A DNA stretch of 34,160 nt from Verrucomicrobiota bacterium. Its GTDB lineage: Bacteria > Verrucomicrobiota > Verrucomicrobiia > Chthoniobacterales > JAFAMB01. Positions 21,920-28,318 of the stretch are shown piece after piece (positions within the stretch are counted from its first letter, which is position 1; the number at the start of each line of letters is the position of its first letter). The translations under genes and the position numbers were made by a program. The notes below the pieces were generated by a model. That model did no database searches and had not been told where the DNA came from. It saw only the letters and a program-made list of their open reading frames with translations. Where the stretch lies: assembly GCA_019246215.1 (NCBI GenBank), contig JAFAQT010000431.1, positions 1 through 34,160 of the forward strand. The letters run 5' to 3'.

Positions 21920-23620
21920 CTACATTTTTTCAGGAACCTGAATCCCAAGCAGGTGGAGACCGGTCCGCAAAAGACGCGAGAAAATGTCGCATAGAATTAA
22001 TCGTGCCTCGCGCACCGCAGGCTCCGCAGAGAGCACCGGGCAGGATTCATAGAATCCGTGAAATTCCGCGGCCATGTCGTACAGGTAAGTCGCCAGGATG
22101 TTCGGCTTAAAGCCGTCCAGGACCGCCGACACAATATCAGGGAATTGGAGAATCTTTTTTGCAAGACGCAATTCTGCTTGTTCTCGCAAAATTATCGAAA
22201 TCGTTGCCGAGAACGGAATTGGCAGCTTCCGAAAAATGGAGCGGCACCGAACATAAGCGTTTTGCAGATAGGGTGCAGTGTTGCCCTGAAGCGATAACAT
22301 CTTGTCCCAGGAAAAGATATAATCCGTCATGCGGTGCTGAGAAAGTTCCGAGTATTTGACTGCGCCGATCCCCACGATCCTGCTTACCGAACGACGTTCC
22401 TGCTCTGATAATTCGGGATTTTTCTCGGCGACAATTGCTGTCGCGCGAAGAACAGCCTCATCCAGCAAAGCCTGAAGAGGAACCGATTCTCCAGATCGAG
22501 TGCGCATGAGCTTGTGGTCCTCTCCCAAAATGCTTCCGAAAGCGATATGTTGAAGGTCCCCTTGGTATCCCAAACGACGGGCAAGGCTGAACAACTGCTG
22601 AAAGTGGAGCTGTTGAGGTGCGCCAACGACGTACCAGATCGCTTCTGCTCGCCAGCGATCCAATCGATACTGCAATGTTGCTATATCGGTCGCCGCGTAT
22701 GGATATCCGCCGTCGGATTTTCGGATGATAAATGGATCTTCACTTAACGCCCGATCCCAGACCACAACTGCTCCGTCGCTGACCTCAGCAAATCCACGCT
22801 CCTGCAACTCCTGCACAACGCGCGGCAATTCCGGGTTGTAAAAGCTTTCGCTCAACTGGTAATCAAAGCGGACTCCAAGGAGGTCATAAATCTTAGCGAA
22901 TCCCTCGATCGAAAGATCAACACATCGCTGCCAAATCCGGCGATTCTCATTGTCTCCTCGTTGGAGTTTCACCAGTTCTTGACGGCATTCTTCCAGAATA
23001 GCGGAATCCTTTTTTGCTGCCGTGTCGGCTTCGCGATAGATGCGAACCAATTCCGAAACCGGGTCTGAATCGAGATTTTCCGCGATCAGTAAGTGCTTCC
23101 AACCGAAGATAATCTTTCCAAATTGAGTCCCCCAATCGCCGATGTGATTATCGGTGATTACATGGTGTCCGAGAAACCGGGTGATGTTTGCCAGAGCGTC
23201 CCCGAGAACCGTCGATCGGATATGCCCAACATGCATCGGCTTAGCGATATTCGGCGAACTGAAATCGATCACCACCGTTTTGGGATTTTCCGTTCTTTCG
23301 ACGCCAAGGCGCTCATCCAAAGCAAGTTCGTGAAGGCGATGGCCGAGAAAATCCGGTGATAGCCTGAAATTGATGAATCCGGGACCGGCAACTTCAGCAA
23401 TGCCGATGTCGCTGAGCGATAGATGCGCCACAATGCGTCCCGCGAGGCTTCTGGGCTTCTGTTTTAGCTTCTTCCCGAGCACCATCGCTGCATTTGTCTG
23501 GTAATCGCCGTGTCGCGGATCTGCAGTCGGAGTTGCTTGCAGCAGTCCACCGTTCCCAATACCGATCGCTCGAAGAGCATCTTGCAGACGCTCTTGCAGT
23601 ATTTCTGAGACGGTCGCCAT
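21920..23620 (-). CDS. argS: Arginyl-tRNA synthetase
   Basis: This 566-residue class I synthetase charges tRNA-Arg. The N-terminal additional domain covers about residues 1-110. SSPNIAKPMHVGHIRSTVLGD holds the HIGH-like motif HVGH (130-133). GDWGTQFGKII, the catalytic fold, and GEDHKLMRTRSGESVPL (in place of a strict KMSKS) follow. A DALR anticodon-binding domain ends the protein (AELRLAKKILQFPD to LRTGLHLLGIQVPEKM). Length is in the family range. The ATG at 23620 follows the PTS-like gene by only three bases. Confidence 0.97.
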   Translation of the reverse strand: MATVSEILQERLQDALRAIGIGNGGLLQATPTADPRHGDYQTNAAMVLGKKLKQKPRSLAGRIVAHLSLSDIGIAEVAGPGFINFRLSPDFLGHRLHELALDERLGVERTENPKTVVIDFSSPNIAKPMHVGHIRSTVLGDALANITRFLGHHVITDNHIGDWGTQFGKIIFGWKHLLIAENLDSDPVSELVRIYREADTAAKKDSAILEECRQELVKLQRGDNENRRIWQRCVDLSIEGFAKIYDLLGVRFDYQLSESFYNPELPRVVQELQERGFAEVSDGAVVVWDRALSEDPFIIRKSDGGYPYAATDIATLQYRLDRWRAEAIWYVVGAPQQLHFQQLFSLARRLGYQGDLQHIAFGSILGEDHKLMRTRSGESVPLQALLDEAVLRATAIVAEKNPELSEQERRSVSRIVGIGAVKYSELSQHRMTDYIFSWDKMLSLQGNTAPYLQNAYVRCRSIFRKLPIPFSATISIILREQAELRLAKKILQFPDIVSAVLDGFKPNILATYLYDMAAEFHGFYESCPVLSAEPAVREARLILCDIFSRLLRTGLHLLGIQVPEKM

Positions 23621-23623
23621 CCC

Positions 23624-24100
23624 CTAAGTGGCTTGGGATCGAGCGGCCTTATTGTCGAAGATGCTCAGTATCTCATCGGCCGACTCTGCCTTTGCAAGCT
23701 GTTCGCGGACAGATTTGTCGTTCAGAAATTTGGCAATCGCGGCAAGCGTCCGGAGATGGACCTGAAACTGATCCTTCGGCACCACAAACAAAACGATGAA
23801 TCGGACCGGAGAATTGTCTAGTGAGTCGAACTCGATCCCTGTGGAGGAGCGCCCAAATGCCGCGACCACCTCGCTCACGCAGTTCGAAGAGGCGTGCGGG
23901 ATCGCGATCCCAAATCCAATTCCGGTGCTCATCGTCTCCTCCCGCTGGCGCAAAGCGGCAAGAATTGAATCTCTGTCCGACGTTCGAACCCGGCCCTTAT
24001 GCACCAACAGATCGATCAACTCCACGATTGCCGCCCACCTTTCGGTTGCCTTCATCTCGGGGATGATTTGATCTACTGATAAAAGGGAGCCTAGTGTCAT
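23624..24100 (-). CDS. ptsN: PTS EIIA-type (PtsN/fructose-like) phosphotransfer protein
   Basis: A 158-residue EIIA domain. The phosphoacceptor His69 lies in GIGFGIAIPHASS, and REETMSTGI precedes it as in PtsN. The core continues through PVRFIVLFVVPKDQFQVHLRTLAAIAKFL. Stand-alone proteins of this kind usually act in nitrogen-related PTS signalling rather than sugar uptake. No HPr or EI gene is in the window. The ATG at 24100 has GAGAG just upstream; the frame runs to 24124 but MTLGSLL fits the family. It leads the minus-strand series and is divergent from the GlgA-like gene. Confidence 0.88.
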   Translation of the reverse strand: MTLGSLLSVDQIIPEMKATERWAAIVELIDLLVHKGRVRTSDRDSILAALRQREETMSTGIGFGIAIPHASSNCVSEVVAAFGRSSTGIEFDSLDNSPVRFIVLFVVPKDQFQVHLRTLAAIAKFLNDKSVREQLAKAESADEILSIFDNKAARSQAT

Positions 24101-24143
24101 AGCTCTCGATCGAGAATGCCGCACCTTAGCAAGTCGCTGTCCT

Positions 24144-24270: not shown

Positions 24271-25719
24271 ATGAAGATTTTAATGGCAACCAGTGAGTTC
24301 TCCCCACTCGGCTCGACCGGTGATCTGGGGGATCAGCTCCGTATTCTGGCGATCGAACTGAAAAACCTTGGCCATGACGTCAGCGTGATCATCCCTTTCT
24401 ATCGATCCGTTCGCGACAGCAGGTATGAAATCCGTCCGACGCAGGACGAGCTCCAAGTCAATCTGGGAGGAAAACGAGCCTCCTTCGACCTCCTCGAGGC
24501 GACCAGTCCGGAAGGAATTCAGGTTCACCTGGTTCGCCGCGATGAGTACTTCGATCGCAGCGGTATTTATGGGGGGGACGGCAGGATCTACGAAGATAAC
24601 GCCGAACGATTTATCTTCTTCTCGAAGGCCGTCTTGGAAGTCGCCAGCAGGATTTTGCCTTCTCCGGAGCTGATCCATTGCCATGACTGGACGACCGCGC
24701 TGGTTCCGGTCTTCGCTCGGGATCGTCAAATGCCGTTTCGTACGGTTCTGACAATCCACAATTTGGAATATCAGGGATCATTTTGGAGTTTCGACTTTGC
24801 ATTGACCGGTTTACCTGGAAGCTATTTCGGTCCGCGCGGCCTTGAGTTTTACGGGCGGCTGAATTTCCTGAAAAGTGGAATTCTCTACGCAGACGCCGTG
24901 ACGCTGCCGGGCGAACCGGCTCTCTTCGAGGCGTTTACCCCTCAGCACGGCTTCGGGCTCGATGCGGTTCTGCAGGAAAACCGTTTTCATCTTTACGGCG
25001 TTCCGCATGGTGTCGACTATGCACAAACAACCCCCCCTTTCGAAAAACTGATCGGCAAACACCAACAGTCCAGTGGGACCAACGGAAAATTGAGGTGCCG
25101 GGAGGCGCTCCTGGAGGAGCTTAAGCTTGAAAAAAGTCCGAACGGAACTGTCATCAATTTGCCGATTGAGACCACAGACGAGGGGGCGTTCGGCGCGGTC
25201 AAACCGACTTTGGATCTTATTCTAACCGCCGATACCTGTCTTGTGATCACGGGGAAGGCACTAGATCAGGATCTCGCGGAGGTCATTGTGGCAGAGAGAC
25301 AATATCCCACCCGCTTTGCACACCTCGCAAAAGCGGACGCCACCCTCCGCTTACTCTGCCTAGCTGGCGCAGACGTGGTTCTGCTGCCCTCCTCGCTTGG
25401 ATTACGTAGCGAGAACGCGATAGCGGCGATGCGCTACGGGACATTGCCCATCGTTAAAGCTCGTAGAGGCGTGCATCAAATCGTCTCGGACTATAATGCT
25501 GGCACAGAAAGCGGCTGCGGCTTTGTCTACAACGACCATTCTCCCATGGCGCTCTGGGATTCTATTCGGCGCGCTAACCAGCTCTACCGAAGATCGGAAG
25601 AATGGAAGAAAGTAGCGGAGCGCGCGGAAACACTCGATTTCTCTTGGACAGAATCAGCGAAGGCGTTTGTCAGGTTGTACGCCAATCTCTTGAGACACCA
25701 GCAAGCCACTCAAGCTTAA
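24271..25719 (+). CDS. Glycogen-synthase-fold (GT5, GlgA-like) protein with degenerate active-site motifs
   Basis: This 482-residue protein keeps the starch/glycogen synthase architecture: N-terminal MKILMATSEFSPL, GIYGGDGRIYEDNAERF, HCHDWTTALVP (136 on), TIHNLEYQGSF, LNFLKSGILYADAVT, HGFGLDAVL, GVPHGVDY and RYGTLPIVKARRGV. Several residues known to matter in E. coli GlgA are missing. K-x-G-G-L at 15-19 is STGDL. The ISRL-x-x-QKG region (Arg300, Lys305) is replaced by INLPIETTDEG (295-305). The FEPCGL loop with Glu377 is LGLRSE (376-381). It may be an inactive or repurposed paralogue. No glgB or glgC is nearby; an aminotransferase follows after 56 bases. ATG 24271 matches the family start. 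Confidence 0.85.
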   Translation: MKILMATSEFSPLGSTGDLGDQLRILAIELKNLGHDVSVIIPFYRSVRDSRYEIRPTQDELQVNLGGKRASFDLLEATSPEGIQVHLVRRDEYFDRSGIYGGDGRIYEDNAERFIFFSKAVLEVASRILPSPELIHCHDWTTALVPVFARDRQMPFRTVLTIHNLEYQGSFWSFDFALTGLPGSYFGPRGLEFYGRLNFLKSGILYADAVTLPGEPALFEAFTPQHGFGLDAVLQENRFHLYGVPHGVDYAQTTPPFEKLIGKHQQSSGTNGKLRCREALLEELKLEKSPNGTVINLPIETTDEGAFGAVKPTLDLILTADTCLVITGKALDQDLAEVIVAERQYPTRFAHLAKADATLRLLCLAGADVVLLPSSLGLRSENAIAAMRYGTLPIVKARRGVHQIVSDYNAGTESGCGFVYNDHSPMALWDSIRRANQLYRRSEEWKKVAERAETLDFSWTESAKAFVRLYANLLRHQQATQA

Positions 25720-25775: not shown

Positions 25776-27155
25776 ATGCTCCCAGAAATTGTTACCGCCA
25801 TCCCAGGACCACGCTCGCGCGATCTCTCATTGGCTCTCTCGAAATACGAAAATCGCAATATCACCTACCTGGCCTCGCATTTCCCGGTATTTTGGGAGAA
25901 AGCTTCCGGAGTGAATGTCTGGGATGTCGACGGCAATCGTTTCTTGGATCTCAGCGCCGGTTTCGCAGTGGCCGCTCACGGCCATACCCACCCGTCGATT
26001 CGCGCCGCGATGATTGACCAATCCGCGAAATTGATTCATGCCATGGGAGATGTCCATCCCGCCGAGAACAAGCTCCTTCTCTGCCGGAAATTAAGCCAAA
26101 TCACATTTGAGCGGTGGGGACTCGGCACCGGAAAAACGACCTTGTGCAATTCCGGCTTTGAGGCAGTCGAAGTCGCGATCAAAACTTCGATGTTGCATAG
26201 CGGAAAGCCTGGCGCAATCGGGTTCACCGGCGGGTATCACGGGTCGGGATACGGAGCCTTGGAGGTGATCGGAATTCGTTGGTTTCGCGAACCGTTTCAA
26301 CAACAGCTGCGCGATTTCGCCACTTTGATCCCGTATCCCAACTGTTACAGGTGCCCGTTTGGCAGATTGGAAGGATACCGGTTGGACGGATCCCGTTTTC
26401 CAAATTGCGCAAGTTCTTGTCTGACCGCAATCGAGGATCAAATCTCTCAGGCTATTCGCCAAAGACCAATTGGATGCATCGTCGTCGAACCTTGCCTGGG
26501 GCGCGGGGGCGAGGTGGTGCCCCCTCTTGATTTCCTGCGAATGCTGCGCCAGCTCTGTGACACCTACAAGATCCTGCTTGTTTTTGATGAAATCTATACC
26601 GGGTTCAATCGAACCGGCGCGCTTTTTGCCAGTGATCAGTTCGGCGTCTATCCAGACCTCCTCTGTCTTGGAAAGGGATTGACGACAGGGTTTCCGTTGG
26701 CCGCCTGCATTGGAAGGGCAGAGATCATGGATGCTTGGCCGCGGTCGACCGGTGAGGCGCTCCACACGACCACATTTCTCGGGAACCCGGTAGGCTGTGC
26801 CGCCGCACTCGCTTCGATCGAACTTCACCTGGAGAGCGGCGTTGGAAAACGTGTCCAGATACTCGGAAGACGCTTGCGCGATCGAATCAAAGAAATGGCT
26901 CTGCCTGCGATCGGCCATGTCCGAGGGCTGGGTTTGATGATCGGCGCAGAACTTGTCAAGAAGGATGGCCTTCCCGATCCGGATCTCGCGTTGCGGACGG
27001 TTCTGGCTGGATTGCAGGATGGCCTGCTTTTTCTTGGAGGCGGACAGGATGGAAATGTTTTGTCCTTCACGCCACCTTTCTGTATCGAGGTCGATGAAAT
27101 CGATTACACCTGCGCGAAAATCTACGAGTATTTGCGTTTCGGATCGGTCTCGTAG
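25776..27155 (+). CDS. Class III (acetylornithine/4-aminobutyrate-type) aminotransferase
   Basis: From ATG 25776 it has 459 residues and is a PLP-dependent fold-type I transaminase. Evidence is VWDVDGNRFLDLSAGFAVAAHGHTHP, NSGFEAVEVAIK, GYHGSGYGAL, IVVEPCLGRGG, LLVFDEIYTGFNRTG (Asp271) and LCLGKGLTTGFPLAA with PLP-binding Lys300. The substrate is not clear. An unusual insertion NCYRCPFG then NCASSC (Cys190, 193, 211, 215) could bind metal, though similar segments occur in some relatives. The open frame reaches back to 25602 inside the preceding gene, but those residues are not family-like. Its last 34 bases overlap the convergent Dabb gene. Confidence 0.9.
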   Translation: MLPEIVTAIPGPRSRDLSLALSKYENRNITYLASHFPVFWEKASGVNVWDVDGNRFLDLSAGFAVAAHGHTHPSIRAAMIDQSAKLIHAMGDVHPAENKLLLCRKLSQITFERWGLGTGKTTLCNSGFEAVEVAIKTSMLHSGKPGAIGFTGGYHGSGYGALEVIGIRWFREPFQQQLRDFATLIPYPNCYRCPFGRLEGYRLDGSRFPNCASSCLTAIEDQISQAIRQRPIGCIVVEPCLGRGGEVVPPLDFLRMLRQLCDTYKILLVFDEIYTGFNRTGALFASDQFGVYPDLLCLGKGLTTGFPLAACIGRAEIMDAWPRSTGEALHTTTFLGNPVGCAAALASIELHLESGVGKRVQILGRRLRDRIKEMALPAIGHVRGLGLMIGAELVKKDGLPDPDLALRTVLAGLQDGLLFLGGGQDGNVLSFTPPFCIEVDEIDYTCAKIYEYLRFGSVS

Positions 27156-27433
27156 TCCAAAACCATTGAATCCCGGGTACTCGGCTTGATGGTTTCTTCA
27201 ATGAACTTAATATAAACCGGGTCCTCCACAAACATCGCCATGCGCTCTTTGGAATCGAACTCGACCGCAAAAAAGAAAGGCCACTCATTTTCCTGATCAA
27301 TCCGGCGGCCACATCGCACGTTCATCGCAACCGGAATTTTCAATAGCTGCATCCGGGTTTGCATCAAGAGTACCTCCAAGCGCTCCGAGGTGATCTCCGG
27401 TTTGAGTTTATACAATACGATGTGATGGATCAT
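27122..27433 (-). CDS. Dabb (stress-responsive alpha/beta-barrel) domain protein
   Basis: A 103-residue protein starting MIHHIVLYKLKPEITSERLE, the typical opening of the Dabb family of small dimeric ferredoxin-like barrels. The middle holds MQLLKIPVAMNVRCGRRI and EFDSKERMAMFVEDPVYIKFIEE, also typical. Family members have varied or unknown functions; no catalytic role can be read here. The ATG at 27433 is chosen over an extension to 27517 that would run into the prmA start region. The gene converges on the aminotransferase with a 34-base overlap at 27122-27155 and diverges from prmA. Confidence 0.85.
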   Translation of the reverse strand: MIHHIVLYKLKPEITSERLEVLLMQTRMQLLKIPVAMNVRCGRRIDQENEWPFFFAVEFDSKERMAMFVEDPVYIKFIEETIKPSTRDSMVLDYETDPKRKYS

Positions 27434-27487
27434 GTGCGCGTCTTCTTCTAGAAAGTCGTTCTGCAGTAAGCAAGGAATATCGATTGA

Positions 27488-28318
27488 ATGCTCGTCTGGA
27501 GAAAAATAAGCACCCAAAAATGGCTCGATTCATGGCAAGAAAGATTAGCGTTCCTCGGCCGGGAGCGGCTAGCCATCAGCCAGTTTACAAGCGCCCGCAA
27601 AGTCCGCCTCGAGGTCTTTGACGTGACCGTAAACGAATCGGCCCTGCTGTTGAGGTGCTTTGGCGGTGAGGTTCGCGACCTTAATCATTCAACCGCAGAT
27701 TGGGTTCGCAGCGTTGTTTCGAGAAAGCCGATCTCCATTCGGGGGCGATTGCGGATAGTCAATGACGAACCGATTCGGGGAACGGTTCGCGATTTAAACA
27801 CAATTTACATTCCGGCGAACCTCGCCTTCGGAACCGGAGAACACGCCACGACGGCTGGATGCCTTCGGCTGTTAATTGATCTTGCCCCAAAAAAGCGTGA
27901 TTGGGAATTTCTCGACGCGGGCACTGGGACTGGGATTCTGGCCATCGCGGCTTTGCGACTGGGAGCGAAAAGAGCTCTCGGATTCGATTTTGATGCCACC
28001 GCCATTCGGGTTGCCAAGACTAACGCTCATCTGAACAAGGCGAATGGCTTGAAACTGTTTCGTGCGGATGTTCTAAAGTATACTCCGGAAGGTAGTTTCG
28101 ATCTGGCGGCGGCAAACCTCCATAGCGAGCTGTTCCGGAAAGCTGCGGCGAGACTTTGGCCGGCAATAAAGCCGGAAGGAAGATTGATCATTTCCGGCCT
28201 GATGCGTGATCAGATCGAGGCGACCAGCGAGAAAATCCTCGATCTCGGTGGCCAAATCGAAATGACGCGCACCCGTGGAAAGTGGGTGACGATGGTGGCA
28301 CATAGGACGGAGATATAG
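27488..28318 (+). CDS. prmA: Ribosomal protein L11 methyltransferase-type protein
   Basis: A 276-residue SAM-dependent methyltransferase. The PrmA signature ANLAFGTGEHATTAGCLRLL (about 113-131) precedes motif I FLDAGTGTGILAIAALRLGA. The motif ALGFDFDATAIRVAKTNA binds SAM, and LAAANLHSELF replaces the usual NIL segment. The N-terminal 90 residues are shorter and less conserved than in E. coli PrmA, so trimethylation of L11 is likely but another protein target cannot be excluded. ATG 27488 gives a sensible N-terminus, though the divergent Dabb gene start is only 54 bases away. Confidence 0.85.
   Translation: MLVWRKISTQKWLDSWQERLAFLGRERLAISQFTSARKVRLEVFDVTVNESALLLRCFGGEVRDLNHSTADWVRSVVSRKPISIRGRLRIVNDEPIRGTVRDLNTIYIPANLAFGTGEHATTAGCLRLLIDLAPKKRDWEFLDAGTGTGILAIAALRLGAKRALGFDFDATAIRVAKTNAHLNKANGLKLFRADVLKYTPEGSFDLAAANLHSELFRKAAARLWPAIKPEGRLIISGLMRDQIEATSEKILDLGGQIEMTRTRGKWVTMVAHRTEI

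Follow-up and report, generated by a model that had tools for sequence, protein, structure and literature searches.

A glycogen synthase homologue that has lost its ADP-glucose site, probably kept as a glucan-binding protein in a Verrucomicrobiota lineage

Introduction

What becomes of a glycogen synthase gene when the residues that hold its sugar-nucleotide donor have been replaced and the rest of the protein has been kept? The question is raised by a gene at 24271-25719 on the forward strand of the window (the whole stretch of Verrucomicrobiota DNA analysed here, 34,160 nucleotides), which we refer to as pseudo-GlgA. An initial annotation had described it as a GlgA-fold protein without most of the known catalytic residues and had offered three suggestions for its role: a regulatory paralogue, an enzyme with a different donor or a glycan-binding protein. 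The start and sizing of bacterial glycogen particles are poorly known, and a natural separation of GT5 functions would allow both to be probed. Non-catalytic GT5 relatives are already known from plants, of which the Verrucomicrobiota case is a new variant. In the open-access literature, outside which most subscription papers fall, work on glycogen synthase pseudoenzymes, inactive GT5 proteins and Verrucomicrobia with GlgE yielded no description of this case.

Results

The reading frame at 24271-25719 is open throughout its 482 residues, and the GT5 layout that the initial annotation reported is indeed there, with HCHDW at residues 136-140 and HNLEYQG at 163-169. PF08323 identifies a GT5 domain (213.8 bits) in a protein of full GT5 length. 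With the GlgA model TIGR02095 pseudo-GlgA scores 324.0 bits against a cut-off of 328.45, which three other copies from its genus (g1) pass with 344-349 bits. The GT-B fold is retained over the full length of the predicted structure (AlphaFold mean pLDDT 91.5, pTM 0.89), for which the best solved match found by Foldseek is the glycogen synthase of A. tumefaciens (1rzu, TM 0.88), and the model includes both secondary-structure elements, a strand and a helix, on either side of the old Arg300/Lys305 loop. The nearest protein records come from Verrucomicrobiota and are 82%, 73% and 71% identical.

Eight residues touch ADP-glucose in bacterial glycogen synthases, namely His161, Val211, Asn246, Arg300, Lys305, Glu377, Gly380 and Leu381 (PMC7137382); we used these as the donor contact set, in E. 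coli GlgA numbering, and took residue equivalences from a sequence alignment with the E. coli protein. Pseudo-GlgA keeps one of the eight, His161. Serine replaces Lys15 (codon 15, 24313-24315, forward strand) and Asp replaces Gly18; ETTDEG stands in place of RLTSQK at codons 300-305 (25168-25185, forward strand), with Arg300 changed to Glu and Lys305 to Gly; and GLRSE stands in place of EPCGL at codons 377-381 (25399-25413, forward strand), with Glu377 changed to Gly, Cys379 to Arg and Gly380 to Ser. The changes first noticed at Lys15, Arg300/Lys305 and Glu377 are therefore real, although that at Lys15 is by itself weak evidence, because Arg, Ser, Thr or Cys also occurs at this poor marker position in otherwise intact donor-site enzymes of the order. 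No displaced basic residue fills the lost donor loop, residues 295-310 of pseudo-GlgA containing neither Lys nor Arg.

The same losses recur in the eight other copies from the family (f1), which rules out sequencing error or chance. Across the nine f1 copies 13 of 72 donor contacts are kept, compared with 186 of 192 in 24 GT5 sequences of family f5, whose donor site is intact. Arg300, Lys305 and Glu377 are missing from all nine, which span four genera, position 377 is Gly in every one, and no f1 copy has the canonical motifs. The alignments thus strongly support the loss of glycogen synthase activity that had been claimed for pseudo-GlgA. For such genes, the annotation 'glycogen synthase' by homology alone would be misleading.

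Loss of the donor site has not been accompanied by loss of the gene, which was found in nine of 11 f1 genomes and in all four genera, with no internal stop in any copy and with intact orthologues at 48-82% identity; no copy was detectable in two genomes of genus g2 (G004 and G005, 84% and 78% complete). Within g1, dN/dS (Nei-Gojobori) is 0.092-0.134 for pseudo-GlgA, 0.066-0.123 for argS and 0.048-0.082 for the neighbouring aminotransferase, figures that are approximate since some dS values are near saturation. A dN/dS of 0.09-0.13 together with open frames in the copies found leads us to reject a pseudogene and bears out the earlier remark against simple decay. As a GT5 that lacks the catalytic residues and is kept by selection, pseudo-GlgA answers in these respects to the description of a non-catalytic starch synthase like plant STARCH SYNTHASE 5 (SS5).

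The gene also stands where a glycogen synthase gene would be expected. Upstream lie a divergent PTS EIIA/PtsN-like gene (23624-24124, reverse strand; PF00359, 118.8 bits) and an argS-like arginyl-tRNA synthetase gene named by sequence and position (21920-23620, reverse strand), both of which served as synteny markers and the latter also as the dN/dS yardstick. Downstream lie a class III aminotransferase gene (25776-27155, forward strand; PF00202, 295 bits) and a Dabb-domain gene (27122-27517, reverse strand; PF07876), a neighbour conserved in synteny. These four genes are the f1 flanks, subsets of them flank the intact-motif GT5 genes of f5, and the PtsN-like gene is the same neighbour in f5, f12 and f1. 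By synteny, pseudo-GlgA is orthologous to the intact glgA that a related family carries. A search of the genome for a second, canonical glgA found none, the other PF08323 match being a GlgM-type GT4, and found no GT3 glycogen synthase; with the assembly 95.9% complete, the absence of further GT5 and GT3 genes is not absolute. As the sole GT5 of its genome, at a conserved argS/PtsN-like/glgA locus, pseudo-GlgA is not a paralogue, contrary to the first suggestion.

Other enzymes of glucan metabolism are present in the genome: GlgB, GlgP, GlgE, TreS and GlgC, the last as two full genes (G000:C366 and G000:C109). The GlgM-type GT4 is encoded by a separate gene (C384 in G000), scores 533 bits with TIGR02149 (glgA_Coryne; cut-off 302) and has the motifs with the donor-binding His, Asn, Arg, Lys and Glu; the same model gives no match to pseudo-GlgA, which does not qualify as a GlgM. 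In Gram-positives, such a GT4 coexisting with GlgE is thought to be GlgM and to make maltose-1-phosphate (PMC11046441, PMC4981310, PMC7137382), and we infer that this one is GlgM as well. Since GlgC, GlgB, GlgP, GlgE and TreS are present alongside the GT4, a glucan route without a GT5 is available, and glucan synthesis in this organism would be independent of pseudo-GlgA. Genus g4 of the same family lacks the GlgM-type GT4 in both of its genomes (G009 and G010; loci L008, L009, L078 and L079); these have no active GT5 either, and keep GlgC, GlgB, GlgE and TreS.

The acceptor side presents a different picture from the donor side. The glucan-acceptor residues of CLg1GBSS include Glu10, Leu20, Tyr101, Asp151, Trp152 and Phe185 (PMC6086201), six that we chose from the published description; His153, variable even where the donor site is intact, was left out. 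The six correspond to Glu9, Leu19, Tyr100, Asp139, Trp140 and Phe171 of pseudo-GlgA, where all six are present, Tyr100 being matched by sequence only and lying one column off the E. coli tyrosine in the alignment. Asp139-Trp140, equivalent to E. coli Asp137-Trp138, is encoded at 24685-24690 on the forward strand. Acceptor contacts are kept in 51 of 52 cases in the f1 copies and in 144 of 144 in their f5 relatives.

This asymmetry extends to the two halves of the protein. For the N-terminal, glucan acceptor half (residues 1-240; 24271-24990, forward strand) f1 and the intact donor-site enzymes have mean pairwise identities of 0.70 and 0.69, whereas for the C-terminal, nucleotide-sugar donor half (residues 241-482; 24991-25719, forward strand) these are 0.49 and 0.62. 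The ratio of C- to N-terminal p-distances is raised in families without the donor site (1.76 in f1, 1.53 in f6 and 1.44 in f9) compared with those that keep it (1.08 in f5 and 0.96 in f8), and codon distances within genera run in the same direction, less sharply. An apparent 25-fold N/C contrast in dN within f6 (genus g28) was discarded as partly an artefact of the chimeric C-terminus of L153 (G073:C67), a frame of 758 residues that follows GT5 to about residue 415 and continues as unrelated sequence, either a gene fusion or a misassembly.

An order-wide comparison of about 88 aligned GT5 sequences places these observations in a broader context. Most donor residues are lost in f1, f4, f6, f7, f9 and f12 and nearly all are kept in f5, f3, f10 and f8; f2 keeps Arg300, Lys305 and Glu377 and has lost Val211 and Asn246. 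No GT5 match was obtained in the f13 genomes, in genus g8 or in most f12 genomes of genus g18, and GlgE and GlgM were found order-wide. Acceptor Asp137 is lost in all f6 copies and in f9, and the acceptor residues of f4 are gone except Trp138, Asp137 and Phe169. In f4 GT5 relatives such as L105 and L190, even Glu9 and most motifs are lost, the frames are open and dN/dS is about 0.26.

A first GT5 tree joined the inactive families with f2 and was set aside, long branches being mixed in. Trees of GlgB and of GlgM place f1 apart from f6, f9 and f2, as does a GT5 tree built without the catalytic columns (support 88/84), and a topology test does not reject a single inactive clade (p-AU 0.34). With these three trees in agreement, at least two losses is the better-supported reading, and the donor site was most probably lost two or more times independently in the order. 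In a tree without plant sequences, pseudo-GlgA nests among the GlgA proteins of its own order, apart from bacterial outgroups. Val-Ser is replaced by Pro-Gly at codons 213-214 (24907-24912) in f1, and proline at the codon 213 position occurs also in f2, f9, f7, f12 and nearly all of f6. In f2 it stands alongside Arg300, Lys305 and Glu377, and the change may have come early in the loss.

Discussion

We consider it probable that pseudo-GlgA is a non-catalytic, glucan-binding pseudo-glycogen-synthase, an ancestral glgA kept in place in an organism of the GlgM/GlgE type. The ancestral glgA of the lineage would have lost its ADP-glucose site and stayed at its locus, with glucan made through the GlgC-GlgM-GlgE and/or TreS routes. 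The protein has very probably ceased to transfer glucose; its N-terminal groove would plausibly still hold malto-oligosaccharide or glycogen chains; and it might, without catalysis, hold primers for glycogen particles, scaffold them or regulate them, a role that can be likened to that of non-catalytic SS5 at starch granules. Because the donor residues are lost and the groove for glycogen chains is kept, binding of glycogen rather than its synthesis is the probable function, and 'glycan-binding protein' is the best supported of the three original suggestions. Conservation of the acceptor residues may alternatively serve folding only. That activity has been lost with the glucan-holding half under selection suggests a second, non-catalytic job for GT5 proteins in bacterial glycogen metabolism, in a lineage where GT5 and GlgE occur together and the GT5 has been switched off or lost.

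Comparison with known systems sharpens this proposal. Pseudo-GlgA has the fold, length, locus and acceptor-side residues of GlgA (GT5) from E. coli and A. tumefaciens, but lacks the donor site and Glu377 and falls just below the TIGR02095 cut-off. It resembles plant SS5 (SSV) as a retained GT5-related protein without glycosyltransferase activity, but would be of independent origin and has a C-terminal domain that is kept but altered; it does not belong to the plant SSIV/SSV clade, lying within the GlgA of its own order and in synteny with glgA. GlgM, the GT4 maltose-1-phosphate synthase, is a related GT-B enzyme that uses ADP-glucose, but it keeps the His, Asn, Arg, Lys and Glu that pseudo-GlgA does not. 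In the chlamydial Criblamydiaceae and Waddliaceae, of a related phylum, a GlgA-GlgB fusion marks the breakdown of the GlgC-GlgA pathway where GlgE is present (PMC7935935). There, fusion and truncation occurred and glgC was lost, whereas pseudo-GlgA is an intact protein with point changes in a genome that keeps glgC.

The strongest competing explanation, which we regard as unlikely but worth keeping in mind, is a cleft reshaped to take a different donor or a small ligand, giving a glycosyltransferase or a sensor of new specificity. Eighteen residues are invariant in f1 but seldom seen in relatives whose donor site is intact, and several lie in the old donor loops; those near the old donor site (P213, G214, P298, D303, S375, L376 and G377) could mean a new ligand, and Arg379, present in eight of nine copies, could hold a phosphate instead of Arg300/Lys305. 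However, the catalytic positions have no conserved Glu, Lys or Arg, residues 295-310 of pseudo-GlgA include no Lys or Arg, and constraint is weaker on the C domain, where the donor site would lie, than on the N-terminal half, which makes the 'different donor' suggestion less likely. We also doubt that the gene is a slowly decaying relic, made redundant by GlgM/GlgE and on its way out. The missing GT5 matches in f13, g8 and most of f12 g18, the order-wide occurrence of GlgE and GlgM and the relaxed C domain would suit such a relic, but a dN/dS of about 0.1, the lack of stops across several speciations and roughly 50% divergence, and an N domain conserved to the degree seen in intact donor-site relatives amount to purifying selection that largely contradicts decay.

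A joint pathway with the adjacent class III aminotransferase, for example an amino-sugar route, is very improbable. The 56-base gap noted by the initial annotation holds (probable start ATG at 25776), and the two genes share a strand and are neighbours in several families, but the partnership drawn from it is uninformative: the aminotransferase equally adjoins active glgA, and in f1 genera g2 and g3 the inactive GT5 is kept with no aminotransferase beside it. Continued use of ADP-glucose through displaced residues is scarcely credible, since the full-length GT5 fold and the retained His161, Asp137 and HGVD loop are set against seven changed contacts out of eight and Gly at Glu377 in nine of nine copies.

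It is possible, and we put it forward only tentatively, that the glucan-binding role proposed for pseudo-GlgA applies across the order, whose pseudo-glycogen-synthases, independently inactivated two or more times, would act as dedicated, non-catalytic primers or scaffolds for glycogen in GlgM/GlgE glucan builders and be the bacterial counterpart of SS5. The loss of Asp137 in f6 and f9 and the greater loss in f4 mean that the same job cannot be assumed order-wide, and glucan binding may fail in parts of the order.

Two further GT5 variants were seen among the relatives. One genome (G176) carries, beside its resident f8 copy, a second GT5 (L111:1144-2643) whose motifs are all canonical (KTGGL, EPSGL); in the tree it groups with the outgroups and thus represents a transfer or contamination. 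The f8 GT5 sequences themselves (for example L065 and L068) have His or Arg in place of N162 and Ala in place of Gly18, keep the other donor residues and form an altered variant that is possibly active.
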